This document shows positions 40,520-64,000 of a stretch of 64,000 bases of DNA, one piece after another. The stretch is taken from contig CP066225.1 of assembly GCA_016350165.1 (NCBI GenBank), positions 62,001 through 126,000 of the forward strand, read 5' to 3'. How positions within the stretch are numbered: the stretch's first letter is position 1; each line of letters opens with the position of its first letter. The translations under genes and the position numbers were made by a program. The notes under the pieces were generated by a model. That model made no database searches. It saw nothing but the letters and a program-made list of their open reading frames with translations, and was not told where the DNA came from. The stretch comes from Planctomycetota bacterium (GTDB lineage: Bacteria; Planctomycetota; Phycisphaerae; Phycisphaerales; Phycisphaeraceae).

Positions 40520-41905
40520 ATGGCAACAATCACTATCCAGAACGGACGCGTAATCGACCCCCTCAACAATATTGACGAAACCAACGACGTCGTGATTCAC
40601 GATGGCGTCATAAAAAAAATCGGAAAAGAAGCATCACCCGCCACTGGCCCTGACTGTATGACCATTGACGCAGGTGGCTGCATCGTTGCCCCCGGCTTCA
40701 TCGACGTTCACGTCCACTTCCGCGAACCAGGCCAGGAAGAAAAAGAAACCATCGCAACAGGCTCCGCTGCCGCCGTCTCAGGTGGCTTCACCACCGTCTG
40801 CTGCATGCCAAATACCCAACCAACCCTCGATGACGACGTCCAGATCGACTTCGTCTACCAGCAAGCCAAGCGAGCCAACCTCGCAAATGTCTTCCCTGTC
40901 GGAGCCGCGACCAAAGGTCGACTCGGAAATGACTTAGCCGAAATGGGACTTATGAACCGCGCTGGCGCCGTTGCCTTTTCAGACGACGGCTGTGCAGTTG
41001 CCGACCCCAGCGTCATGAACAAAGTCCTCCAGCAATCCGTAATGCTCAACAAAGTTTTCATGCAGCACTGTGAAGACCCTTCACTTGGTGGTGGTGCCAT
41101 GAACGCCGGACTCACCGCCACACGCCTCGGCCTAGGCGGATGGCCACGTGTCGCCGAAGACCTCATCATCCAACGCGACATCCTTCTCAACAAATACATG
41201 GGCTTCAAAGCTCGTTGGCACGCACAGCACATGAGTTCCGCTGGAGGCATCGACATGATCCGCCAAGCCCGCAAGCACACCGACAACATCACCGGCGAAG
41301 CCTCACCCCATCACCTTCTCCTCACCGACGAAGATTGCGGCACCTACGACACCAACTACAAAATGAACCCACCACTCCGAGGCAAAGAAGACATCGCCGC
41401 AATCATTGAAGGCATCGTTGACGGCACAATCACCATCCTCGCCACTGACCACGCTCCACATACCCGCGAGGAAAAAGAACTCGAATTCGCAGCCGCCCCC
41501 TACGGCATCATCGGCCTCGAAAACGCACTCCCTTGCTACGTCAAAGCACTCATCGAATCCGGCGCAATCGATTGGCCGCACCTTCTCGCCATGATGACCA
41601 TCAACTCAGCTCAACTCGTCAACCTCACCAACAAAGGGCACCTCACGCCTGGCGCCGACGGCGACGTCGTCATCATCGACCCTGAAATGACCTGGACCAT
41701 TGATGCCAACAAGTTCGCCTCCAAAGGCCGCAACTGCCCATTCCATGGCTGGGATATCAAATCACAATCCATCGGCACCATCGTCGACGGCAACCTCAAA
41801 CTCCTACGCCAACCTGAACGACTCAAATCCGACGCTTCCTCACCAGTCGTCGCAGACGCACAACAACTCCTCGAAGTTCACTCAAGCAAATACTCAAGAA
41901 TCTAA
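40520..41905 (+). CDS. pyrC: Dihydroorotase
   Basis: A class I dihydroorotase of pyrimidine synthesis, 461 residues (class I enzymes are about 430). It has the metal site DVHVHFREPGQEEKE near residues 61-75, SGGFTTVCCMPNTQPT, a HLSSAGG-like HMSSAGGIDMIR, and the late ATDHAPHTREEKE near 311. The hydrolase-like order matches PyrC. A possible alternative is an allantoinase-like cyclic amidohydrolase, but the full motif set favours PyrC. Followed by a terminator. Confidence 0.92.
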   Translation: MATITIQNGRVIDPLNNIDETNDVVIHDGVIKKIGKEASPATGPDCMTIDAGGCIVAPGFIDVHVHFREPGQEEKETIATGSAAAVSGGFTTVCCMPNTQPTLDDDVQIDFVYQQAKRANLANVFPVGAATKGRLGNDLAEMGLMNRAGAVAFSDDGCAVADPSVMNKVLQQSVMLNKVFMQHCEDPSLGGGAMNAGLTATRLGLGGWPRVAEDLIIQRDILLNKYMGFKARWHAQHMSSAGGIDMIRQARKHTDNITGEASPHHLLLTDEDCGTYDTNYKMNPPLRGKEDIAAIIEGIVDGTITILATDHAPHTREEKELEFAAAPYGIIGLENALPCYVKALIESGAIDWPHLLAMMTINSAQLVNLTNKGHLTPGADGDVVIIDPEMTWTIDANKFASKGRNCPFHGWDIKSQSIGTIVDGNLKLLRQPERLKSDASSPVVADAQQLLEVHSSKYSRI

Positions 41906-41931
41906 AACATCCCCCAAACTGCAAAACCACC

Positions 41932-41962
41932 AAAGCATGGCCCTAAAAGCCATGCTTTTCTT
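41932..41962 (+). terminator. Intrinsic terminator after pyrC
   Basis: A perfect 10-bp stem AAAGCATGGC / GCCATGCTTT with a 7-base loop is followed by TTCTTTC. It begins 27 bases after the pyrC stop and separates pyrC from the ycaO gene. Confidence 0.88.
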
Positions 41963-42142
41963 TCACCATCACATTCTCCTTTTCTCTGCAATCCCTATAC
42001 AAGCTCCACCCACCACAGGGCTTTTCCCCTCTAAACCTCTGGTGGACACGTTGCCTAACGTCGCAAACAATCTTCTACTCACAGACTCCCCCTCTCTGAT
42101 CAAGCACGCAAACACTCACCACAAACAAAGAGATTCCCCTGT

Positions 42143-43435
42143 ATGAGCCATATAAACACGGTCCAACCTTCAATCAAACAAGATGAAGAAAGATCAGTTA
42201 ATGCCGAACAAGCGATAATCATCGCACAAAAAGACATCGAAGCACTAAACCTGCGACAAGAAACCTTCACCTTCGGCAATACACTGCCTATATACGAAAC
42301 ACGAATCTTCGATCAACAAAATAACCTGCTCGCTCGAGGTACAGGTAAAGGCATCTATCCCTTCAATAAAGCCGGAGCAATCTTCGAAGCAATCGAACAT
42401 CTCTTCGGCGTCTCACTCCCTCCATCCCCACATAACCTCATACCAAAAACTACTTCATTCCTCGCATCACAATCCATCACCGACCAGTACATCCCCTTCC
42501 AACTCTTACAAGACTTCCCAGATCAGCAAATCTATTGCACCGAATTTCATTGTTACGATAAACCCAACCAAACACTCTACCTCCCGACATTCTTATGGTC
42601 CCCACACCTTTGCTGCTCACCCGAATACTATCGCAGTGATGACAATCTCGAACTAAGCTCAGTACTTCTGAAATATGCCTGCAATTCAGGCGTCGCTTCA
42701 GGCCTCACCCCCGACGACGCAATCCTGCATGGCATCAACGAAGGCATCGAACGCGATGGCCACGGCCGCCTTCTATATAAGTACTTTTACAACGATCCTA
42801 ACCCTATAAACCCACTACCCATCATCGAAACCTCCACCCTGCCAGCAGAATTACTCAAAGAAATCCGAGACATCGAACATCAACTAGGCGACACATGCAT
42901 TCTCATCAACGCAACCTCCGATCTCGGAATCCCTGTCATCGGCGCAATCTTCAAAAACTATCACTTATCTCACAACATCCCCGCACCAGGCTTTGGTTGC
43001 TCACTCTTCCCGGAAATTGCAATCCGTCGCGCCGTTTACGAAGCCATTCAAATCATGAATGGTGCCGACTACTACCCCGAGCAACGCCGCGAAGCTTACG
43101 AAGAAGATTTACAACGTGTTCAAGAACACGAAGCATACACACGTTGCGTTACCTTCAACATCAGTGCATACGAGCAATACATCGGCTACGAACCTCAATC
43201 CTTTAACCGACTCTACAGCCACACCATTACCTGCGCACCAATCTCTGTACATAAACAAATCAAGCTTCTGACCGAACACCTTCAAGCATACAACCTCAAC
43301 ATTTATACACACACCCTCAAACAACTCAAGCACAACACCATCATCATCAGCACCCAAATTCCCGGCTTATCCCTCTTCTACCTCACCGCAAGCGGAATGA
43401 TGATCCCACCAACAGGAAGAACATCATGCCTCTAA
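42143..43435 (+). CDS. Stand-alone YcaO-domain protein (candidate RiPP modifying enzyme)
   Basis: A 430-residue YcaO-fold ATP-dependent enzyme. Family members activate peptide backbone amides to make azolines, thioamides or amidines. The three ATP/Mg helices are intact: GAIFEAIEHLFG near residue 78, INEGIERDGHGR near 202, and RRAVYEAIQIMNG near 295, together with CNSGVASGLTPDD. The C-terminus (PTGRTSCL) is not the PxPxP type of classical cyclodehydratases. No E1-like (ThiF/ocin) partner or TfuA gene is near. Its start ATG 42143 has a weak AAGAGA site. Two small peptide genes with a shared leader lie 500 bases downstream, which makes them the first substrates to test; function is inferred. Confidence 0.88.
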   Translation: MSHINTVQPSIKQDEERSVNAEQAIIIAQKDIEALNLRQETFTFGNTLPIYETRIFDQQNNLLARGTGKGIYPFNKAGAIFEAIEHLFGVSLPPSPHNLIPKTTSFLASQSITDQYIPFQLLQDFPDQQIYCTEFHCYDKPNQTLYLPTFLWSPHLCCSPEYYRSDDNLELSSVLLKYACNSGVASGLTPDDAILHGINEGIERDGHGRLLYKYFYNDPNPINPLPIIETSTLPAELLKEIRDIEHQLGDTCILINATSDLGIPVIGAIFKNYHLSHNIPAPGFGCSLFPEIAIRRAVYEAIQIMNGADYYPEQRREAYEEDLQRVQEHEAYTRCVTFNISAYEQYIGYEPQSFNRLYSHTITCAPISVHKQIKLLTEHLQAYNLNIYTHTLKQLKHNTIIISTQIPGLSLFYLTASGMMIPPTGRTSCL

Positions 43436-43838
43436 GCAAACATCATACACGAACAAATAAACACAGAACCCAGACACCAACTCCTAACATAACACTCTTG
43501 CCGCTAATCCTCATACCCACGCCTCTCATTCTCCCCCAACCTATAACAACCACATCACTAAAGCCCCTCAAAAAACGCTTAAAAACAATAAAATAAACAC
43601 AAAAAGAGCATGGACACACTAAGCAGTCTATATGCATGAGCAAAAAACTTAATATCACAACTGCATACACGAATCACTAACTCACACACTCATATTCAAT
43701 GCAACGTCACACCTTCCAAATCGCTATCAACACCGCGACATCTCTTCTTAATTGCAGCATGCTATCATTCGCCTATCTTTCTATTAGACCCAATCTAAAT
43801 ATCCATTAAAAAGTCAATAAGAAAACTAAAAATATTAT
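43436..43838. other. Intergenic stretch between ycaO and peptide gene 1
   Basis: About 400 bases are strongly C-rich on the + strand to 43560 and AT-rich after 43560. No open frame with a ribosome binding site, and no further copy of the IKWKGG motif, was found here. The end leads into the promoter of peptide gene 1. Confidence 0.5.
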
Positions 43839-43866
43839 TTGCCTTACAAAATTTCAGAACTAATAT
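43839..43866 (+). promoter_or_regulatory. Promoter of peptide gene 1
   Basis: A -35 element TTGCCT (43839-43844) and a -10 element TAATAT (43861-43866) are separated by 16 bases. The first nine bases TTGCCTTAC and the spacing are the same as at peptide gene 2 (44211-44238). Transcription would start near 43873, just before the palindrome. Confidence 0.65.
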
Positions 43867-43882
43867 CCATTGAACTTCATTT

Positions 43883-43904
43883 CAGTACAAAACGTTTTGT
43901 ACTG
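43883..43904 (+). promoter_or_regulatory. 22-bp perfect palindrome in the leader of peptide gene 1
   Basis: The two halves, CAGTACAAAAC and its reverse complement, meet without a gap. It begins 16 bases after the -10 element and ends 30 bases before ATG 43935. A matching but interrupted repeat is at the same place upstream of peptide gene 2. It may be a repressor operator or, since it lies inside the predicted transcript, an RNA hairpin. Confidence 0.7.
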
Positions 43905-43934
43905 CATCAACTATAAAACAACAAGGACATCGTC

Positions 43935-44081
43935 ATGAATATTAAATGGAAAGGCGGGATGATCGTCCCACGAGTCGTTAATAACTTGACGAATACCGAA
44001 AACAACTTAATCAACAACAAACATAACAACAATTGCAATAATAAAAAGAATTGCAACAACAATAACAACAAGGATAGCTAG
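43935..44081 (+). CDS. Candidate precursor peptide 1, 48 aa
   Basis: A short gene from ATG 43935 to TAG 44081. The first 13 residues, MNIKWKGGMIVPR, match peptide 2 at 11 positions. The rest is extremely Asn-rich (about 20 of 35 residues) and contains a C-x5-C pair inside Asn/Lys runs (NNCNNKKNCNN), His and Thr/Ser. AAGGA lies 7 bases before the start, with a strong terminator 18 bases after the stop. Conserved start and free C-terminus are typical of leader/core peptides; the Cys, Ser and Thr of the second part would be possible YcaO targets. Other roles (small regulatory or antimicrobial peptide) are possible. Confidence 0.78.
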   Translation: MNIKWKGGMIVPRVVNNLTNTENNLINNKHNNNCNNKKNCNNNNNKDS

Positions 44082-44099
44082 TTTTTCACACACCGAATG

Positions 44100-44124
44100 G
44101 GGCAGCCTCAGGGCTGCCCTTTTT
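44100..44124 (+). terminator. Terminator of peptide gene 1
   Basis: A perfect 8-bp GC-rich stem GGGCAGCC / GGCTGCCC with a 4-base loop and T5. It isolates peptide gene 1 as its own transcription unit. Confidence 0.95.
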
Positions 44125-44210
44125 CATGCGTACACAACAAATTCAAAACTCACTTTCATACTTCGCCAAAACGCTTGTTCACTATAGTAGATATATTTTC
44201 ACTAAACCGC

Positions 44211-44238
44211 TTGCCTTACTGAATATTCCGTCTACTAT
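44211..44238 (+). promoter_or_regulatory. Promoter of peptide gene 2
   Basis: TTGCCT (44211-44216), 16-base spacer, TACTAT (44233-44238). Sequence and spacing match the promoter at 43839-43866. Confidence 0.62.
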
Positions 44239-44253
44239 TCACTAACTTTTGAT

Positions 44254-44282
44254 TCAGCACAAACATTAATTTCCTGTGCTGA
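44254..44282 (+). promoter_or_regulatory. Inverted repeat in the leader of peptide gene 2
   Basis: The arms TCAGCACA and TGTGCTGA enclose 13 bases. It begins 15 bases after the -10 element and ends 34 bases before ATG 44317. The CAGYACA...TGTRCTG core is shared with the palindrome of peptide gene 1, with a compensatory-type change (T-A to C-G) in both arms. Confidence 0.65.
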
Positions 44283-44316
44283 CACCAACCCTAACGATTA
44301 AGATGAGGAATTCATC

Positions 44317-44424
44317 ATGAGCATTAAATGGAAAGGCGGACTCATCGTCCCACGTACAACAAACAATACTTCTAAAACAGAACGTGAACTTCTAAAAAAG
44401 ATTAAGAAGTCAAGCCAGAAATAA
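44317..44424 (+). CDS. Candidate precursor peptide 2, 35 aa
   Basis: The paralogue of peptide 1. It starts MSIKWKGGLIVPR, then TTNNTSKTERELLKKIKK and SSQK. The second part is unrelated to that of peptide 1: Lys/Leu-rich, probably a short amphipathic helix, with five Thr/Ser near the junction and two at the end but no Cys. GAGGA lies 7 bases upstream of ATG 44317. A terminator lies 37 bases after the stop. In the shared first part the DNA is nearly identical even at silent positions. Confidence 0.78.
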   Translation: MSIKWKGGLIVPRTTNNTSKTERELLKKIKKSSQK

Positions 44425-44460
44425 TCATTCAGTTTGTGTTCTCTAACAATACTAATTGTT

Positions 44461-44494
44461 AATAAAGCAGCTTACTCAAGCTGCTTTATTCTTT
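44461..44494 (+). terminator. Terminator of peptide gene 2 (bidirectional)
   Basis: A perfect 13-bp stem AATAAAGCAGCTT / AAGCTGCTTTATT with a 4-base loop, ending in a T-rich tail. It also lies 26 bases beyond the stop of the convergent acetyltransferase gene. Confidence 0.9.
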
Positions 44495-44519
44495 GCCTGC
44501 CATGACCCCTATCTATCGA

Positions 44520-45095
44520 TTAGTACTTCCAATCTTTCACTAGCATCGCATAGATACTCAAACTTACCTTGCGGTCCTGCCATCTCGCAACATCACGCAT
44601 CGTTCCCTCATAAACAAAACCCAACCGCTCCGCGACAGCAATACTCTTCTTATTCTCAGGTTCCGTCCTGATCGTCACACGATTGAGACCCAAATCACGA
44701 AACGCATAACTCACCAACTTCTCAACTGACTTACTCATCACCCCCTTTCCCGACGCGTTCTCAGCTAACCAATAAATCAAATCCACCGACGACACAATCG
44801 GATGCTCAAATGGATTCTCATGCTTCGACTGTTGCCAATACAGCCAGCCTACCTCACCAACAATCTTGTCATCCTCAACAATACACATCTGCAACTGTTG
44901 ACGTTTATCAAATCCCTCTAGCGATGACTTGGCAAACTTAATCGCATCCGCGTCATCGTAATTTTCTTTCGCCCAATCGAAGTAGTACGAAAGCGGCTCA
45001 TAATTCGCCGCAACAACCCTTGCCAATTCCTTTGAATCACGTTCCTGGATCTGTCTCAAAACAATATCTTCATCAACCGGAATGATCAGTCCCAT
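44520..45095 (-). CDS. GNAT acetyltransferase, RimJ/RimL type
   Basis: A 191-residue acetyltransferase. The N-terminal LRQIQERDSKELARVV, the acetyl-CoA loop GKGVMSKSVEKLVSYAF near 112, and NRVTIRTEPENKKSIAVAERLGFVYEGTMR near 136 are typical of the RimJ/RimL/SpeG group, which acetylate N-termini or small amines. ATG 45095 has AGGAG 8 bases upstream; an in-frame TTG seven codons earlier is less likely. It converges on peptide gene 2. Such enzymes are sometimes RiPP tailoring proteins, but a simple neighbour is as likely. Confidence 0.9.
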   Translation of the reverse strand: MGLIIPVDEDIVLRQIQERDSKELARVVAANYEPLSYYFDWAKENYDDADAIKFAKSSLEGFDKRQQLQMCIVEDDKIVGEVGWLYWQQSKHENPFEHPIVSSVDLIYWLAENASGKGVMSKSVEKLVSYAFRDLGLNRVTIRTEPENKKSIAVAERLGFVYEGTMRDVARWQDRKVSLSIYAMLVKDWKY

Positions 45096-45517
45096 ATGCT
45101 CTTCTCCTGAGTTCAAAACCAGTTCATTTCATGCGCGCACATTCACAATATCTGATCACACTTCATTTTTCGCTATCAGAATTATCTGCAATCACCATCC
45201 ACTTGCCCTACCCGATTCGTCGCTTTTGTGCGCGCGCTTTTTCGATTTTAGTGATTTACCCCTATTCAAAAATAGCTCAAAAAGAGCTGTTTTCGTCAAG
45301 AATCAACAAACTTTGATCAGAAACGATCAAGAATCATCCGGTTTTGAGTAGCAAAATGCCCCCCAAATGCGTGTTTGTGCGCGCAAAATATTTTTTTGCC
45401 CTCACCTACTGCCACCAACAGTAGTTACTTCTTCACCCCCTATGAAACAGATCAGTTATCATACGCTCTGCTTTTGAATCACAACGTGATAAAAATACCA
45501 GCATCCGGATCTGCAAT
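45096..45517. other. Gene-poor region upstream of the GGT gene, with GTGCGCGC motifs
   Basis: This 422-base spacer contains no gene. It holds several GTGCGCGC strings (about 45132, 45229 and 45378) and the copy B hairpin element. A small inverted repeat AGCTC-AAAAA-GAGCT is at 45272-45286. The region resembles 7.1-7.4 kb in composition and motif order. Confidence 0.45.
45374..45424. repeat. GTGCGCGC motif plus CTACTG/CAGTAG hairpin, copy B
   Basis: TTTGTGCGCGCAAAAT (45374-45389), then TTTTTTTGCC, then CTACTG-CCACCAA-CAGTAG (45406-45424). The same order of elements is found at 7314-7384, with a longer spacer there. Confidence 0.4.
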
Positions 45518-48500
45518 ATGCCAACGCAAAAAAGAACATACCTCACATGCTTCTTCACACTTCTGTTTTCAATAACCCTCATCATCACAACCGCTTATAG
45601 CCAGTCCCCGCCGCTTGAGTATTGGAAATCCGAAAACAGGGTTCACGTTACCGAAGGTACAGGTGGTGCAGTCTCAACCATCTGCCCCATCGCCACCCGC
45701 ATCGGACGCGACATCCTCGCTAAAGGCGGCAACGCTGTAGATGCTTCAATAGCAATAGCTTATGCTCTCGCCGTCACATGGCCTGAAGCAGGCAACATCG
45801 GAGGTGGTGGCTTCATGCTCGTCGCGCCGACTGGCAGTGAGCCAGTCTGCATTGAGTACCGCGAGAAAGCCCCTCTTGCTGCTCACGCGAACATGTTCGG
45901 CGGTAAACGTATCTACGGCACAGGTTTAGCGATCGGTGTTCCCGGCACAGTACGCGGCCTCGAACTCGCACATCAAACATACGGCTCCCTACCTTGGGCC
46001 GAATTAGTAGCACCTGCGATCGAATTAGCCCGCGATGGATTCGAAATCAAGGAACAGCTCGTCTATTCATTAAATAGACTTGTACGCAGTGGCAAAGTAA
46101 ATAATGATCCGAGATACGCAGAACTAAAGCGCACGTTCGTAAAACCAAATCGCGCACTCTGGAAAGTTGGTAACCGTCTCGTACAACCAGATTTGGCCAA
46201 AACCCTCACACTCATTGCCGAACAAGGTTCGACTGTCTTTTACGAAGGTGAAATCGCAAAAAAACTCGTCGCTCAAATGAGCAAATGCGACGGCCTCATC
46301 ACACACCAAGACATGCGCGCCTACACAGCCAACATCCGCCCCACAGTCAAAGGCAACTACCGCAGTTACGATATCTACGGTGCAGGCATGCCAACCTCCG
46401 GCGGCACCACTGTGATTGAAATTTTGAATATTCTTGAAAATTTCGAGCTATCTAATCATCCGCTGCACTCAACTGAGAGTATTCATCTGATCGCAGAAGC
46501 AATGCGATTTGCGTACGCTGATCGCGCGAAGTATTTGGGCGATCATGACTTTATTGGGGTCCCTAACTATTTATTAGACAAAGAGTACGCTAAATCAATT
46601 GCAGCGAAGATTGATATGGCAAGCGCAACGCGAAGCGAAGATATTGCATCGCCGATTAAACTAGCTGAGGAAAGCCAAGAGACGACACATTTTTCAGTGA
46701 TCGATAAAAACGGCATGGCAGTGTCGAACACATATACGATCGGGCGCAGCTGGGGTGAATGGATCATGGTCGAAGGCGCGGGTTTTGTACTGAACAGTGA
46801 AATGCTGGCGTTTAATTTAGCGCCAGGTGTGACGAATGAAAAGGGGTTAATTGGAACTAAAGCTAATCGGGTTGAGCCGGGCAAACGGATGTTGAGTTCA
46901 CTGGCGCCGACGATTGTGAAGAAGGATGGGAAAGTGGTGTTGGTAACGGGGTCGCCGGGTGGGCGGACGATAATCAATGTCGTTGTGAGTTTTTTAACGA
47001 ATGTGATTGATTATGACTTACCGTTGGATGTAGCGACGTCGATTGCACGAGTTCACCATCAATGGTTGCCTGACCGAATACTGTTTGAAGGATATGGTGA
47101 TCCGGCTTATGCGGATGTGATTGAGCAGTTGGAGGCCTATGGTCATGTCGTGAAGAAACAGGGATGGCCACTGGGGACGATCCACTCTATTCAAGTATTA
47201 GGCGATCGTGTGATTGGGGTTGCTGATTGGCGAAGAGGTGGAACGGCTGAGGTTGTTGAGCCTTTAGTTGTGAATAATAAAAAAGCGGATGTGGCAACGG
47301 GAACGAAGGGAATGGTCGTGTCAGTTTCCCCCGAAGCCAGCATGGTTGGAAAGGAAGTGATTGAAAAGGGAGGTAATGCGGTTGATGCTGCTGTTGCTGT
47401 TGGCTTTGCATTGGCGGTGACTTGGCCTGAAGCTGGGAATATTGGGGGCGGCGGATTCATGATGGTATCGCCTACAGATGGTGAAACGGTGATGATTGAT
47501 TATCGTGAAAAGGCGCCGTTGGCGGCGACGCGCGATATGTTTGTGGGGCAAACGGATCGTTGGAATTATTTAAATGTTGGGGTGCCGGGGACGGTAAGGG
47601 GTTTGGCGCTGGCGCATGAGAAATATGGGAAGTTGCCTTGGAAAGAACTGGTGATGCCTGCGGTGAAGCTGGCGAAGGATGGTTTCACGGTTGATCAGGA
47701 ATTGGCAGATTCGATCAATAGTGTGATGGCTGAAAAGCGCATTAAAGATGATGCACTCTATGCGCCGCTTAGAGATGAGTATGGTCGAGCAAATGGCAAA
47801 ATATGGCGTAAGGGTGATCGAATTGTATTACCTGAACTAGGTCAAACGCTGGAGCTAATTGCGAATCAAGGGTCTGATGCATTTTATGAAGATAAGATTG
47901 CCGACCAACTTGTCGCTGCAATGAAAGCGAATAATGGGATTATTACGAAAGAGGATTTGGAGAAGTACGAGGCGGTCGTACGTCCTGCGGTAATTGCGAA
48001 TTATCGTGGTTATGAGATTTATGGTCCGCCGCTTCCGAGTTCGGGCGGGATCGTATTGACGGAAGTGTTGAATATTTTGGAGAACTTTGATCTATCGAAG
48101 TATCCTCTTCATTCGCCTGAGAGTATTCATTTGATTACGGAAGCGATGCGGTATGGCTTTGCGGATCGTGCGAAGTATTTAGGGGATAGTGATTTTGTGG
48201 AGGTGCCGCGGTATTTGACGACGAAGGCGTATGCGAAAAAGATAGCTGCAAAAATTAAAATGAGGCAAGCAGCGAAGAGTGAAGATATTGCTGCTCCGAT
48301 CGTGCTTAAGAAAGAAAGTGATGACACGACACATTACTCGATTATTGATGGCGATGGGATGGCGGTTTCAAATACTTACACATTGGAGCAGTCGTGGGGC
48401 GCGAAGGTTGTGGTGAAGGGTGCGGGGTTTGTGCTGAATAATGAGATGGGGGATTTTAATTGGAATCCGGGTGTGACGAATCGTGGCTGGAAGATAGGAA

Positions 48501-48907
48501 CGAAAGCGAACACGATTGAGCCTGAGAAGCGGATGTTGAGTTCGATGACGCCGGTGATTGTGAAGAAGCAGGGAGAGGTTGTGTTAGTGACTGGTTCGCC
48601 GGGTGGCAGAACGATCATCAATACGGTTTTGAGCGTGTTGATTAATGTGATTGATTACAAGATGGATGTAGTACAAGCGGTTGAAAGTGAGCGAGTCCAT
48701 CATCAGTGGTTCCCGGATGTGCTGAATTTTGAGGGAAATTTGGAACCTGAGCATGTAGAGACTATGCGCGAGTTAGAGCAGTATGGCCACACTGTGCGTC
48801 AAGAGGAATGGGTGCAAGGTGATGCGCATTCGATTGGGATTGAGGGCGAGGAGATGACGGGAGTAGGTGATTGGCGACGGAGTGGTAAGGCGGAGGCTGT
48901 GGAGTAA
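45518..48907 (+). CDS. Exported tandem gamma-glutamyltransferase (two GGT units fused)
   Basis: A 1129-residue protein made of two GGT-like units (about 45-575 and 590-1125) after a signal peptide (LTCFFTLLFSITLIITTAYS). Normal GGTs are about 570 residues. Both units keep the nucleophile Thr in TTH (Thr389 and Thr937), the substrate-binding Arg in YREKAP, the oxyanion Ser pair in RMLSS, and GSPGGRTI. Unit 2 keeps the Asp of NEMGDF (Asp979) that binds the substrate amino group; unit 1 has Ala (SEMLAF, Ala431). Thus unit 2 is probably active on glutathione or another gamma-glutamyl compound and unit 1 altered. Likely periplasmic. GC bias flips inside unit 1 near 46.4 kb. Confidence 0.9.
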   Translation: MPTQKRTYLTCFFTLLFSITLIITTAYSQSPPLEYWKSENRVHVTEGTGGAVSTICPIATRIGRDILAKGGNAVDASIAIAYALAVTWPEAGNIGGGGFMLVAPTGSEPVCIEYREKAPLAAHANMFGGKRIYGTGLAIGVPGTVRGLELAHQTYGSLPWAELVAPAIELARDGFEIKEQLVYSLNRLVRSGKVNNDPRYAELKRTFVKPNRALWKVGNRLVQPDLAKTLTLIAEQGSTVFYEGEIAKKLVAQMSKCDGLITHQDMRAYTANIRPTVKGNYRSYDIYGAGMPTSGGTTVIEILNILENFELSNHPLHSTESIHLIAEAMRFAYADRAKYLGDHDFIGVPNYLLDKEYAKSIAAKIDMASATRSEDIASPIKLAEESQETTHFSVIDKNGMAVSNTYTIGRSWGEWIMVEGAGFVLNSEMLAFNLAPGVTNEKGLIGTKANRVEPGKRMLSSLAPTIVKKDGKVVLVTGSPGGRTIINVVVSFLTNVIDYDLPLDVATSIARVHHQWLPDRILFEGYGDPAYADVIEQLEAYGHVVKKQGWPLGTIHSIQVLGDRVIGVADWRRGGTAEVVEPLVVNNKKADVATGTKGMVVSVSPEASMVGKEVIEKGGNAVDAAVAVGFALAVTWPEAGNIGGGGFMMVSPTDGETVMIDYREKAPLAATRDMFVGQTDRWNYLNVGVPGTVRGLALAHEKYGKLPWKELVMPAVKLAKDGFTVDQELADSINSVMAEKRIKDDALYAPLRDEYGRANGKIWRKGDRIVLPELGQTLELIANQGSDAFYEDKIADQLVAAMKANNGIITKEDLEKYEAVVRPAVIANYRGYEIYGPPLPSSGGIVLTEVLNILENFDLSKYPLHSPESIHLITEAMRYGFADRAKYLGDSDFVEVPRYLTTKAYAKKIAAKIKMRQAAKSEDIAAPIVLKKESDDTTHYSIIDGDGMAVSNTYTLEQSWGAKVVVKGAGFVLNNEMGDFNWNPGVTNRGWKIGTKANTIEPEKRMLSSMTPVIVKKQGEVVLVTGSPGGRTIINTVLSVLINVIDYKMDVVQAVESERVHHQWFPDVLNFEGNLEPEHVETMRELEQYGHTVRQEEWVQGDAHSIGIEGEEMTGVGDWRRSGKAEAVE

Positions 48908-61164: not shown

Positions 61165-64000
61165 CTACAAGTGATCTTTCAAGAACTGACCAGTGAACGA
61201 CCCCTTCACCTTAGCCACCTTCTCAGGCGTACCCTCAGCCACAACATTCCCGCCCTTATCACCACCCTCAGGCCCCAAATCAATGATCCAGTCAGCACAC
61301 TTAATCACATCCATATTGTGCTCAATCACAACAACCGTATTCCCAGCATCAACCAATCGATCCAGCACATGAATCAATTTCTTCACATCCGCAAAGTGCA
61401 AACCAGTCGTCGGCTCATCCAGCACATACAACGTTTTACCCGTCGATCGCTTACCCAACTCCGTCGCCAACTTCACGCGCTGTGCCTCACCACCCGACAA
61501 CGTCGTCGATGCCTGCCCCAACGTGATATACGATAAACCAACATCATTTAATGCTGTCAATATCCGCTTGATATCTGGGAACGAATCAAAGAAATCTAGT
61601 GCCTGCTCAACCGTCATTTCAAGCACATCAGCAATCGTCTTACCCTTGTAATGCACTTCCAATGTCTCACGGTTATAACGATGCCCCTTACACACATCAC
61701 ACTCAACATACACATCTGGCAAGAAGTGCATCTCAATCTTCTTTGTACCCTGCCCACCACAAGATTCGCATCGGCCACCCTTCACATTAAACGAAAATCT
61801 GCCCGGCTTATACCCACGAATCTTCGCTTCCTTCGTCTTACTAAATAGATCACGCACCGAATTAAACACATTCGTATACGTCGCAGGATTCGAACGAGGC
61901 GTTCTACCAATTGGACTCTGATCCACCTCAATAATCCGGTTGATATTCTCAACACCCTTCAACCCCGCATGCTCGCCCGGCTTCTCTTTCGAGCCCAACA
62001 ACTCACGCTTAGCCGACCGCAGCAAAATACGATTCACAAGCGTTGATTTACCCGAACCCGAGACCCCTGTCACGACAACCATACCGCCCAAGGGGAACTT
62101 CACATCAATTCCATTCAGATTATTCTGCTTCGCACCCTTAACAACCAACGCCTTCGAATTCCCATTCAATTTCCTGCGTCTGTCAGGCGTATGAATTTCT
62201 TCCTTACCATTCAAAAACTTCGCGGTCAGCGACTTCTTATTCTTCAACACTTCCGCAAGCGTTCCCTGCGCAATCACCTCACCACCATGCACCCCAGGCC
62301 CCGGACCAATATCAATCAAATGATCCGACGCACGAATCGTATCTTCGTCATGCTCCACCACCAGCACAGTATTCCCAATATCCGTCAAGTGTCGCAGTGT
62401 CGTAATCAGCTTCTGATTATCTCTCTGGTGCAACCCAATCGTCGGCTCATCCAGCACATAACAGCAACCCACTAATCCCGACCCAACCTGCGTCGCCAAA
62501 CGAATACGCTGCGCCTCACCACCCGACAACGTCCCCGTCCCACGATTCAGATTCAAGTACCCCAAACCAACCGACAACATAAACCCAAGCCTTGCTCTCA
62601 CCTCTTTCAAAATAGGCTCAGCAATCACAGATTCTTCATCAGACAACTTCAAATTCGCAAAAAACTCAGCCGCATGCTCAATCGTCATCGTCACAACATC
62701 ATCAACGTTGTATGACTTTATCGCATTCTTCCGCTTCACCTTCACAGTTGCATCAATAAACACATTCAACGACTCTTCACGCAACCGTGCACCATCACAA
62801 GTCTCACACGCCGCCTCTGACAAATACGACGCAATAAAGTGCTTAAAGTTCTCCGACTCCGTATTCTCAAGCCTTCTCTGCAAGTTCGGAATCACACCCT
62901 CAAAAAACGCCCCATACTTACTCTCATCACGCGAGTTCGTACCATGCAGCAAAATCCTCTGAATCGGCTTACCCAGCTTCTTCCAAGGCGTTTCCGCATC
63001 AACTTCAAAATCCTTACAGAACTTCCGTATCGCGCGAGCATAAAAAATCTTCATGCGTTTGCCACCAAAACGCCAAGGCTCAATCGCCCCTGTACTCAAC
63101 GACTTGTCCTTATCCGCAACCACCAACTCCGTATCAAACTCAAACCGAATCCCCAACCCCGAACACGCTGGGCAGGCACCATAAGGCGAGTTAAATGAGA
63201 ACAGCCGAGGCTCTAAATCCTCAAGCGAACACTCCGGATGAACAGGGCACGCATACTTCTCAGAAAACAACGTATCGTCCCACTTCTCACGATCATCCGG
63301 ATCATTGATCGTCACCACAACCAATCCATCCGCAAGCTTTAACGACAATTCAGTCGAATCTGCAACACGCGCACGCAACCCTGTATCAGGATCTTCCTTC
63401 CCTTCATCACGAATCACCAACCGATCAACCACTGCCTCAATCGTATGCTGCTGATACCTTTGCGTTTTCGTCGTAAACGGAGTCCCCGCCTTCGACTCAC
63501 TGATCTCACGCAAATCCATGATCTCCCCATCAACACGCGCCCTCACAAAACCTTGCCGCGTCATCGCCTCGAAAATCTCTTTATGATGCCCCTTCTTACC
63601 CCTAATAATCGGCGACAAAATCATCAACCTTGTACCATCCGCATTATCCAAAATATGATCAACGATCTGCGTTGCCGATTGCGATGTAATCGGATGACCA
63701 CACTTCTTCCCAGTCTTCTCATCACGATGCCAACAGCGTGGATGCCCTGCCCGCGCAAACAGCAATCGCAGGTAGTCATAAATCTCAGTCGTCGTCGCAA
63801 CTGTCGATCTCGGGTTATGCGACGCCGACCGCTGCTCAATCGCAATCGTCGGAGGCAAACCTTCAATCGACTCAATATCAGGCTTCTGCAACTGATCCAA
63901 AAACTGACGCGCATACGCCGACAGCGATTCCATATACTTACGCTGCCCCTCAGCATAAATCGTATCGAACGCCAAAGACGACTTACCCGACCCTGACAAA
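61165..64000 (-). CDS. uvrA: Excinuclease ABC subunit UvrA, N-terminus cut by window edge
   Basis: The damage-recognising ATPase of nucleotide excision repair. The visible 944 codons start inside the first P-loop (SGSGKSSLAFDTIYAEG), so only about the first 30 residues are missing. Both ABC signatures (GTGTLSGGEAQRIRLATQVG, ASTTLSGGEAQRVKLATELG), the second Walker A (GVSGSGKSTLVNRIL near 672), and zinc Cys groups (CPACSGLG, CETCDGARL, CESCGGQG with CDVCKG) are present. The first zinc-site segment reads HPRCWHRDEKTGKKCGHP. Its stop 61165 is followed by about 170 bases before the sulP gene. Confidence 0.97.
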   Translation of the reverse strand, partial: LSGSGKSSLAFDTIYAEGQRKYMESLSAYARQFLDQLQKPDIESIEGLPPTIAIEQRSASHNPRSTVATTTEIYDYLRLLFARAGHPRCWHRDEKTGKKCGHPITSQSATQIVDHILDNADGTRLMILSPIIRGKKGHHKEIFEAMTRQGFVRARVDGEIMDLREISESKAGTPFTTKTQRYQQHTIEAVVDRLVIRDEGKEDPDTGLRARVADSTELSLKLADGLVVVTINDPDDREKWDDTLFSEKYACPVHPECSLEDLEPRLFSFNSPYGACPACSGLGIRFEFDTELVVADKDKSLSTGAIEPWRFGGKRMKIFYARAIRKFCKDFEVDAETPWKKLGKPIQRILLHGTNSRDESKYGAFFEGVIPNLQRRLENTESENFKHFIASYLSEAACETCDGARLREESLNVFIDATVKVKRKNAIKSYNVDDVVTMTIEHAAEFFANLKLSDEESVIAEPILKEVRARLGFMLSVGLGYLNLNRGTGTLSGGEAQRIRLATQVGSGLVGCCYVLDEPTIGLHQRDNQKLITTLRHLTDIGNTVLVVEHDEDTIRASDHLIDIGPGPGVHGGEVIAQGTLAEVLKNKKSLTAKFLNGKEEIHTPDRRRKLNGNSKALVVKGAKQNNLNGIDVKFPLGGMVVVTGVSGSGKSTLVNRILLRSAKRELLGSKEKPGEHAGLKGVENINRIIEVDQSPIGRTPRSNPATYTNVFNSVRDLFSKTKEAKIRGYKPGRFSFNVKGGRCESCGGQGTKKIEMHFLPDVYVECDVCKGHRYNRETLEVHYKGKTIADVLEMTVEQALDFFDSFPDIKRILTALNDVGLSYITLGQASTTLSGGEAQRVKLATELGKRSTGKTLYVLDEPTTGLHFADVKKLIHVLDRLVDAGNTVVVIEHNMDVIKCADWIIDLGPEGGDKGGNVVAEGTPEKVAKVKGSFTGQFLKDHL

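Follow-up and report, generated by a model that had tools for sequence, protein, structure and literature searches.

Does a YcaO gene that is followed by two very small open reading frames (ORFs) in a planctomycete genome represent a system for ribosomally synthesized and post-translationally modified peptides (RiPPs), and if so, which part of the peptides is modified, and how? The question is raised by a stretch of 64,000 nucleotides (the window), positions 62001 to 126000 of a 5,234,020-bp single-contig genome (contig CP066225.1) taken as that of Poriferisphaera heterotrophicis ZRK32. A reading made from the letters alone (here, the sequence-only reading) had proposed a candidate RiPP-like system with a conserved leader and a variable core. 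In our comparison, which used Poriferisphaera corsica KS4 as congener (4,291,168 bp; 9.5 Mb for the two genomes together), a YcaO-dependent RiPP-like system is supported by its co-occurrence in a second species, at a paralogous locus, and at related loci in two other phyla, whereas the leader-core layout is probably inverted. We consider it probable that the window locus (locus 1) is a minimal YcaO-dependent RiPP locus with the two small peptides, P1 and P2, as substrates, each with an N-terminal core and a C-terminal follower, and with an amidine as the likeliest product.

The YcaO gene and the small peptide genes of Poriferisphaera

The YcaO gene of locus 1 (42143..43435, plus strand; 430 amino acids [aa]) scores 94.2 bits with the Pfam YcaO domain (PF02624; cut-off, 25.7), which places its product in the YcaO superfamily. 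Residues E82, E85, E200, E203, R204, and Q303, which we take to be ATP-site residues, are invariant across nine aligned YcaO sequences, that of the window included, in agreement with the intact ATP-binding helices seen earlier. The enzyme appears to stand alone, as had also been noted: the TfuA model (PF07812) and a cyclodehydratase-partner model (TIGR03882, the single partner model applied, TIGR03603 and ocin-ThiF not being included) each found no match in the two Poriferisphaera genomes at an E value of ≤0.01, so that neither a TfuA nor an E1-like partner was recovered, and the C terminus is unlike that of classical azoline enzymes in having no PxPxP. The SagD, McrA-thioamidation, and YcaO-kinase models match the protein, each below its own cut-off. 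A single-sequence AlphaFold model was unusable (mean predicted local distance difference test [pLDDT] score, 37.1).

Downstream of the YcaO gene, on the same strand, lie the precursor-like ORFs of P1 (43935..44081; 48 aa) and P2 (44317..44424; 35 aa). Both were confirmed as ORFs with the start M-x-IKWKGG-[ML]-IVPR that had drawn attention to them. The P. corsica ortholog of the YcaO gene (L012:7459-8760; 51% identity) is followed after 143 bp by a 32-aa ORF, P3 (MNKWKGGFLASDNDDNKLTDSEREMIEDNNTD; L012:8904-9002), which shares the KWKGG start and has a terminator-like hairpin behind it. In these locus-1 peptides, residue 2 is Asn or Ser, and the conserved N-terminal part contains two Lys residues and no Cys, Ser, or Thr. 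The linkage of the KWKGG pattern to the locus-1 YcaO exceeds chance; the degenerate pattern M-x(1-2)-KWKGG occurs at three sites in the two genomes, all of them adjoining a locus-1 YcaO gene, and the backward control pattern occurs once. A spread of IKWKGG peptides away from this YcaO, the check suggested with the sequence-only reading, was not seen when 201 genomes of the order were searched: four of them have IKWKGG-like DNA at up to three mismatches, and only the window genome has it at fewer than three, counts that are lower bounds because the P. corsica peptide, in which the I is missing, escapes the pattern. When 28 kb around locus 1 in the window was compared with 18 kb in P. corsica, the only ORFs of at least 90 aa in common were the YcaO gene and a convergent GNAT gene (41% identity). 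Thus, the locus-1 unit stays together while its surroundings differ.

A Pfam search found two YcaO genes in the P. heterotrophicis genome. The second (locus 2) is intact and 46% identical to the window YcaO, and it lies in a region that is syntenic with locus 2 of P. corsica. Upstream of each locus-2 YcaO gene there is a small ORF, MGSCYTGTWNCCGRAGSNLKKNRLTKKEAEIIKKASKAELKKVSSKTR in P. heterotrophicis (Q1) and MGSCYSGTGICCQLADSENNNNKLNEKEIRLIRNNNKSNVRANNKNTKVSDKS in P. corsica (Q2), starting with MGSCY[ST]GT. The P. corsica locus-2 YcaO gene (L013:7262-8552) is broken by in-frame stops and a frame change, with its peptide ORF still standing; it was assigned by synteny and identity, not by the tree described below. 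In that tree, the locus-1 orthologs pair at 95/88 and the three intact Poriferisphaera YcaOs join at 100/99, and the YcaO duplication therefore predates the species split. It follows that the peptide type tracks the enzyme paralogue at all four loci, the locus-1 type accompanying the locus-1 YcaO and the MGSCY type accompanying the locus-2 YcaO in both species.

Related loci and a shared C-terminal block

A tblastn search of 72,556 plasmid records with the window YcaO returned 12 records at an E value of ≤1e-5. Seven of them were read as family loci (Acinetobacter, three Vibrio, Streptomyces, Nonomuraea, and Mycobacteroides), and two others served as controls; two Pantoea records carry a YcaO identical to that of Acinetobacter, and their loci were left out of the family set, as was H10. 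Together with the two Poriferisphaera locus-2 loci, this gives nine family loci, about seven of which are independent, since the set includes one pair of near-identical Vibrio loci and one pair of orthologs. All nine have an ORF of 38 to 53 aa with a Met-Gly (MG) start and a GGAG or AGGAG before it, which ends between 187 bases upstream of the YcaO gene and 14 bases inside it (some YcaO start sites were chosen by hand, and some stretches contain further short ORFs). No such ORF exists at any of seven control YcaO loci (two YcaO-TfuA pairs, three fusion cyclodehydratases, and the planctomycete YcaOs L033 and L035).

In a midpoint-rooted tree of 20 rows, ten family YcaOs split from ten others at 97/94, apart from the YcaO-TfuA pairs and the fusion cyclodehydratases, although five rows are long-branched (Mycobacteroides and Acinetobacter among them) and several deviate in composition; three more planctomycete YcaOs (L031, L032, and L034) entered the tree only. 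As for the second check suggested earlier, on the grouping of the enzyme, the window YcaO falls with the small-peptide loci among these 20 rows. Further relatives were few. A phylum-wide search with a three-row profile matched 5 of 392 genomes, the four others at 2.1e-11 or weaker, and a class-wide search with a nine-row profile matched 7 of 397, two of them Poriferisphaera and the remaining five (L031 to L035) at 6.2e-18 to 4.5e-6. A plasmid tblastn search with three other family members gave no new family locus, and in phages tblastn turned up no additional relative of the Poriferisphaera YcaO. None were found in genome contigs or viral contigs either, which is weak evidence of absence because these searches were seeded by few short peptide patterns. 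Among the neighbors of the plasmid-borne genes are a SagB-type dehydrogenase in Streptomyces (L025), a methyltransferase and a FeeM-like protein in Acinetobacter (L023), and an ABC transporter at the Vibrio loci (L024, L027, and L042).

The remainders of P1 and P2 had been thought to share nothing. This does not hold, since a C-terminal block common to the two peptides becomes visible once other loci are added. Centered on L-[TSN]-x-x-E, it occurs in both Poriferisphaera peptide types (NNLTNTENNLINN, NNTSKTERELLKK, NKLTDSEREMIED, NRLTKKEAEIIKK, and NKLNEKEIRLIRN), the N termini of which differ (KWKGG versus MGSCYxGT). The genus consensus is N-x-L-[TSN]-x-x-E-x-x-[LIM]-[IL], with T in place of L in P2. 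Block scoring places it at residues 16 to 28 in both P1 (43980..44018, plus strand) and P2 (44362..44400, plus strand). Behind the block, P1 continues with an Asn/Lys/Cys low-complexity run (44019-44078) that is unseen in the other peptides; P2 has only IKKSSQK there, and P3 only NNTD.

Both the block and the MG start recur in ORFs just upstream of the Streptomyces, Nonomuraea, and Acinetobacter YcaO genes. We scored each of these eight peptides against the blocks of the other groups only and ranked it among the ORFs of 28 to 62 aa of its own locus; the block borders were set with all eight peptides in view. Seven of the eight outrank every other ORF of their locus (ORFs scoring as high: 0/260 for P2, 0/80 for P3, 0/76 for Q1, 0/86 for Q2, 0/47 for Streptomyces, 0/17 for Nonomuraea, and 0/64 for Acinetobacter, the last by a thin margin of 8.14 versus 7.86). 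P1 is outscored by one of 260 ORFs, at the score of P2. Likewise, the expression L[ST]xxExxx[ILMV] matches 7 of 719 ORFs of 30 to 60 aa in 11 loci, and six of the seven are these peptides; P2 and Q2 fit a relaxed expression only, and Q2 was not counted in the 719, as an earlier ATG opens its frame. A first form of the motif was noted before looking beyond the genus and was later loosened to admit S as well as T, and V and M as well as I and L.

Peptide layout, chemistry, and rival explanations

Short precursor-like genes are linked to YcaO in more than one genome, as a RiPP system calls for. A follower with an N-terminal core is suggested because the C-terminal block is kept across paralogues and phyla, while the start of the peptides is constant for each enzyme and differs between enzymes. 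Accordingly placed, the putative cores would span residues 2 to 13 of P1 (NIKWKGGMIVPR; 43938..43973, plus strand), a segment common to the locus-1 peptides and unlike those of locus 2, and residues 2 to 13 of P2 (SIKWKGGLIVPR; 44320..44355, plus strand), as proposed from peptide comparison and block scoring. The follower, probably helical, would be bound by the YcaO, which at the expense of ATP would activate a backbone amide of the core around KWKGG; an amine, either the N terminus or a Lys of KWK, would attack the activated amide, with an amidine as the result, as in bottromycin. A protease would next cleave off the follower, and the product would presumably be exported. With two Lys residues and no Cys, Ser, or Thr in the locus-1 core, azolines would be unlikely and amines the natural nucleophiles. 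Because, in addition, no TfuA or cyclodehydratase partner was found, amidine formation appears the likeliest reaction, with a thioamide ranking second. In the related loci, an MG start would leave an N-terminal Gly after the action of methionine aminopeptidase.

Several observations weigh against this layout and chemistry. The locus-1 peptides have no MG start and are placed downstream rather than upstream of the YcaO gene, their N terminus is better conserved than the rest, and what follows the block in P1 is mostly Asn and Lys. An MG start without the block is seen in the peptides of the three Vibrio loci and of Mycobacteroides, where other ORFs of the locus score as high (38/55, 4/44, 1/25, and 8/57), so that not every member of this YcaO group has the block. 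As a helix start, LTxxE is of a common kind. It can also serve in a leader, since a short ORF on the plasmid of Vibrio sp. 16 (L024), which shares its stretch with HlyD and peptidase-ABC genes, combines it with a double-glycine-type leader (MKRVICQQVPSLTDAELEMVVGG...). A profile search that covered some of the neighbors of locus 1 recognized neither a protease gene nor a transporter gene there. Finally, in bottromycin the amidine-forming BtmF cooperates with BtmI in vivo (PMC5103208).

The rival that survives best keeps the N-terminal core and the follower but replaces the reaction by a backbone thioamidation (O to S) at or near the Gly-Gly of KWKGG, with sulfide from the environment or from a housekeeping donor. 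We regard it as unlikely. In its favor, a profile built from the three Poriferisphaera enzymes that are intact finds archaeal MJ1094 best among solved structures, ahead of MusD, LynD, and TruD, and the McrA glycine-thioamidation model TIGR03266 matches the window YcaO at 2.9e-14 and 52.8 bits, though far under its cut-off of 365. Thioamidation without TfuA is possible, since uL16 is thioamidated by the YcaO of Escherichia coli, which has no TfuA (PMC13063428). ZRK32 comes from a cold seep. Sulfide may be plentiful at cold seeps. However, P. corsica carries the same locus and came from a sponge off Corsica (PMC7783415), the TfuA model is unmatched in both genomes, and the N-terminal MG of the related loci parallels Gly1 of bottromycin.

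The conventional arrangement, with a YcaO-bound leader made up of residues 1 to 13 and modification in the variable C-terminal stretch as the core, seems to us less plausible still. In its favor are the near-identity of P1 and P2 over these residues, the recurrence of KWKGG in P. corsica, and the two Cys residues in the P1 tail. Yet it is the C-terminal block, not the N terminus, that the peptides of the paralogous enzymes share and that recurs in two other phyla, and the segments behind it, IKKSSQK in P2 and NNTD in P. corsica, are poor core candidates. The layout of the sequence-only reading is thus probably inverted, because the peptides of the two paralogues and of three loci in other phyla agree in the C-terminal block, with an N-terminal part that differs between the paralogues.

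There is little to recommend the view that the YcaO modifies a housekeeping protein and that the small ORFs encode independent small proteins. Such a role exists for the E. coli YcaO, which acts on uL16 (PMC13063428), and the isoelectric points (pI) of the three intact Poriferisphaera YcaOs, 5.30 to 6.52, are on the mildly acidic side, but the E. coli enzyme is far more acidic (pI 4.4; PMC13063428). A window-type YcaO is present in only 2 of 61 genomes searched, both Poriferisphaera; the locus-2 YcaO pieces diverge fast, with 61 to 67% identity between the species versus 85 to 88% for five syntenic neighbors (65% for one); and the peptides track the enzyme paralogues. It is very improbable that the short ORFs arose as chance frames within a region of regulatory RNA. 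A hairpin does lie just behind each of them, and the three locus-1 copies have a AAATGGAAAGGCGG stretch that is identical at the DNA level. Conservation at the protein level is favored, however, by an in-frame difference of one codon that separates the P. corsica peptide from P1 and by the use of three different Gly codons for the second G of KWKGG; no Rfam match was found in 41900-45200 at gathering thresholds, and ribosome-binding-site-like sequences precede the locus-2 peptide ORFs.

Neighboring sequence and known systems

Behind P1 there is an intrinsic-terminator-like hairpin (44099..44120, plus strand), found by consensus scan and by folding; that behind P2 (44461..44490, plus strand) is terminator-like by its fold and was not reported by the scan, which in three stretches gave only the hairpins after P1 and P3. 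Folding shows hairpins after the three locus-1 peptides (P1, P2, and P3), after both peptides of locus 2, and after those of Acinetobacter and Streptomyces, that is, in 7 of 11 stretches folded. At both locus-2 loci and in Acinetobacter and Streptomyces, the hairpin stands between peptide and YcaO gene, where it would favor more peptide than enzyme. No promoter is proposed for P1 and P2 because 43300-44560 contains no sigma-70-like promoter, against 3.5 expected. A perfect 22-bp palindrome (CAGTACAAAACGTTTTGTACTG; 43883-43904), 30 bases upstream of the P1 start, is a possible operator. Its central 20 bp occur at one place in the P. heterotrophicis genome and nowhere in P. corsica at up to three mismatches, and no regulon can be deduced from a unique site.

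A GNAT acetyltransferase gene (44520..45116, minus strand; PF13302), weakly linked to locus 1, converges on the peptide genes and has a homolog of 41% identity at the equivalent position in P. corsica. Homologs exist in 11 of 21 genomes searched, the two Poriferisphaera genomes included, and we rejected the gene as a firm partner of the YcaO, as 37% homologs are present in two genomes (G009 and G011) in which no such YcaO was found. Annotated GNAT genes also occur within a few kilobases of the YcaO gene in Vibrio lentus, Vibrio europaeus, and Mycobacteroides (L028). It is conceivable, on weak grounds, that the protein could acetylate the product for tailoring or self-protection. Farther downstream, a 1,129-aa ORF (45518-48907, plus strand) consists of two similar halves, a tandem duplication in one frame; both halves presumably are gamma-glutamyltransferase-like. 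At locus 2, two sulfur-transport genes are convergent to the YcaO gene in both species (L011:9149-10387 and L013:8756-10014, both minus strand; the PF04143 match was tested on L011). A link of these genes to a sulfur-using reaction is only a thought.

Among known systems, bottromycin is a close parallel. There, the N terminus of the precursor becomes the product, the follower is removed, and stand-alone YcaOs act (PMC5103208, PMC7136475); the two YcaOs are termed partnerless in one paper (PMC7136475), and BtmF and BtmI jointly make the amidine according to the other (PMC5103208). The Poriferisphaera system resembles bottromycin (BtmE, BtmF, and BtmD) in its stand-alone YcaO without a cyclodehydratase, in its putative N-terminal core and C-terminal follower, and, at the related loci, in an MG start, Gly1 being the proposed amidine nucleophile of bottromycin (PMC5103208, PMC7136475). 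It differs in having a single YcaO at each locus where bottromycin has two (the two loci of the genus are unlinked), in the lack of a recognized methyltransferase, P450, or hydrolase gene beside the window locus, and in a KWKGG core without Cys. The bottromycin precursor model NF033414 had no match in the two Poriferisphaera genomes at an E value of ≤1, nor was it among the matches of nine peptides scanned against NCBIfam. Streptamidine (the ami clusters) likewise has a stand-alone YcaO, short peptides without Ser/Thr/Cys-rich regions, an amidine product, and a follower, but its core lies in the middle of the precursor between leader and follower, its motifs A and B share ALV, and its clusters, reported in Actinobacteria and Firmicutes, have iron-transport, hydrolase, dehydrogenase, and ABC genes (PMC8442711). 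Actinobacterial members of the YcaO group described here may be contained in the supplementary networks of that study. The YcaO-TfuA thioamidation systems have the same catalytic domain but lie on the opposite side of the 20-row tree, and neither Poriferisphaera genome has a TfuA match. The azol(in)e systems with a discrete or fused cyclodehydratase also share the domain, as the SagD match below its cut-off shows, but the TIGR03882 partner was not found in the two genomes, the C terminus has no PxPxP, and KWKGG offers no heterocyclizable residue.

In the earlier literature, bottromycin and trifolitoxin are given as the cases of stand-alone D proteins, with many other YcaOs left open (PMC4603692), and a YcaO segment of Pantoea ananatis was likened to bottromycin by BAGEL (PMC8824727). 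Among the matches listed from open-licence PMC articles, no title or abstract concerned this YcaO group or the YcaO peptides of Poriferisphaera. We tentatively raise the possibility, doubtful at present, of a separate RiPP family with members in Planctomycetota, Actinomycetota, and Gammaproteobacteria, marked by an N-terminal core, an LTxxE follower, and a YcaO that stands alone. Its locus-1 branch in Poriferisphaera, with a conserved core free of heterocyclizable residues, would make an undescribed Lys- or N-terminus-derived backbone amidine by means of one partnerless enzyme.

Cluster finders can miss planctomycete loci of this kind: the P. corsica paper gives zero bacteriocin clusters by antiSMASH 4 (PMC7783415), although the genome carries the locus. 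Of the YcaO systems in the literature cited here, as far as it was available, bottromycin is the one that combines an N-terminal core with a follower only. A two-gene system of one YcaO and one peptide of 32 to 53 aa, in which the recognition block can be named, would be a very small test bed for follower recognition by a stand-alone YcaO, and it would show which reaction such an enzyme performs with no Cys, Ser, or Thr at hand.

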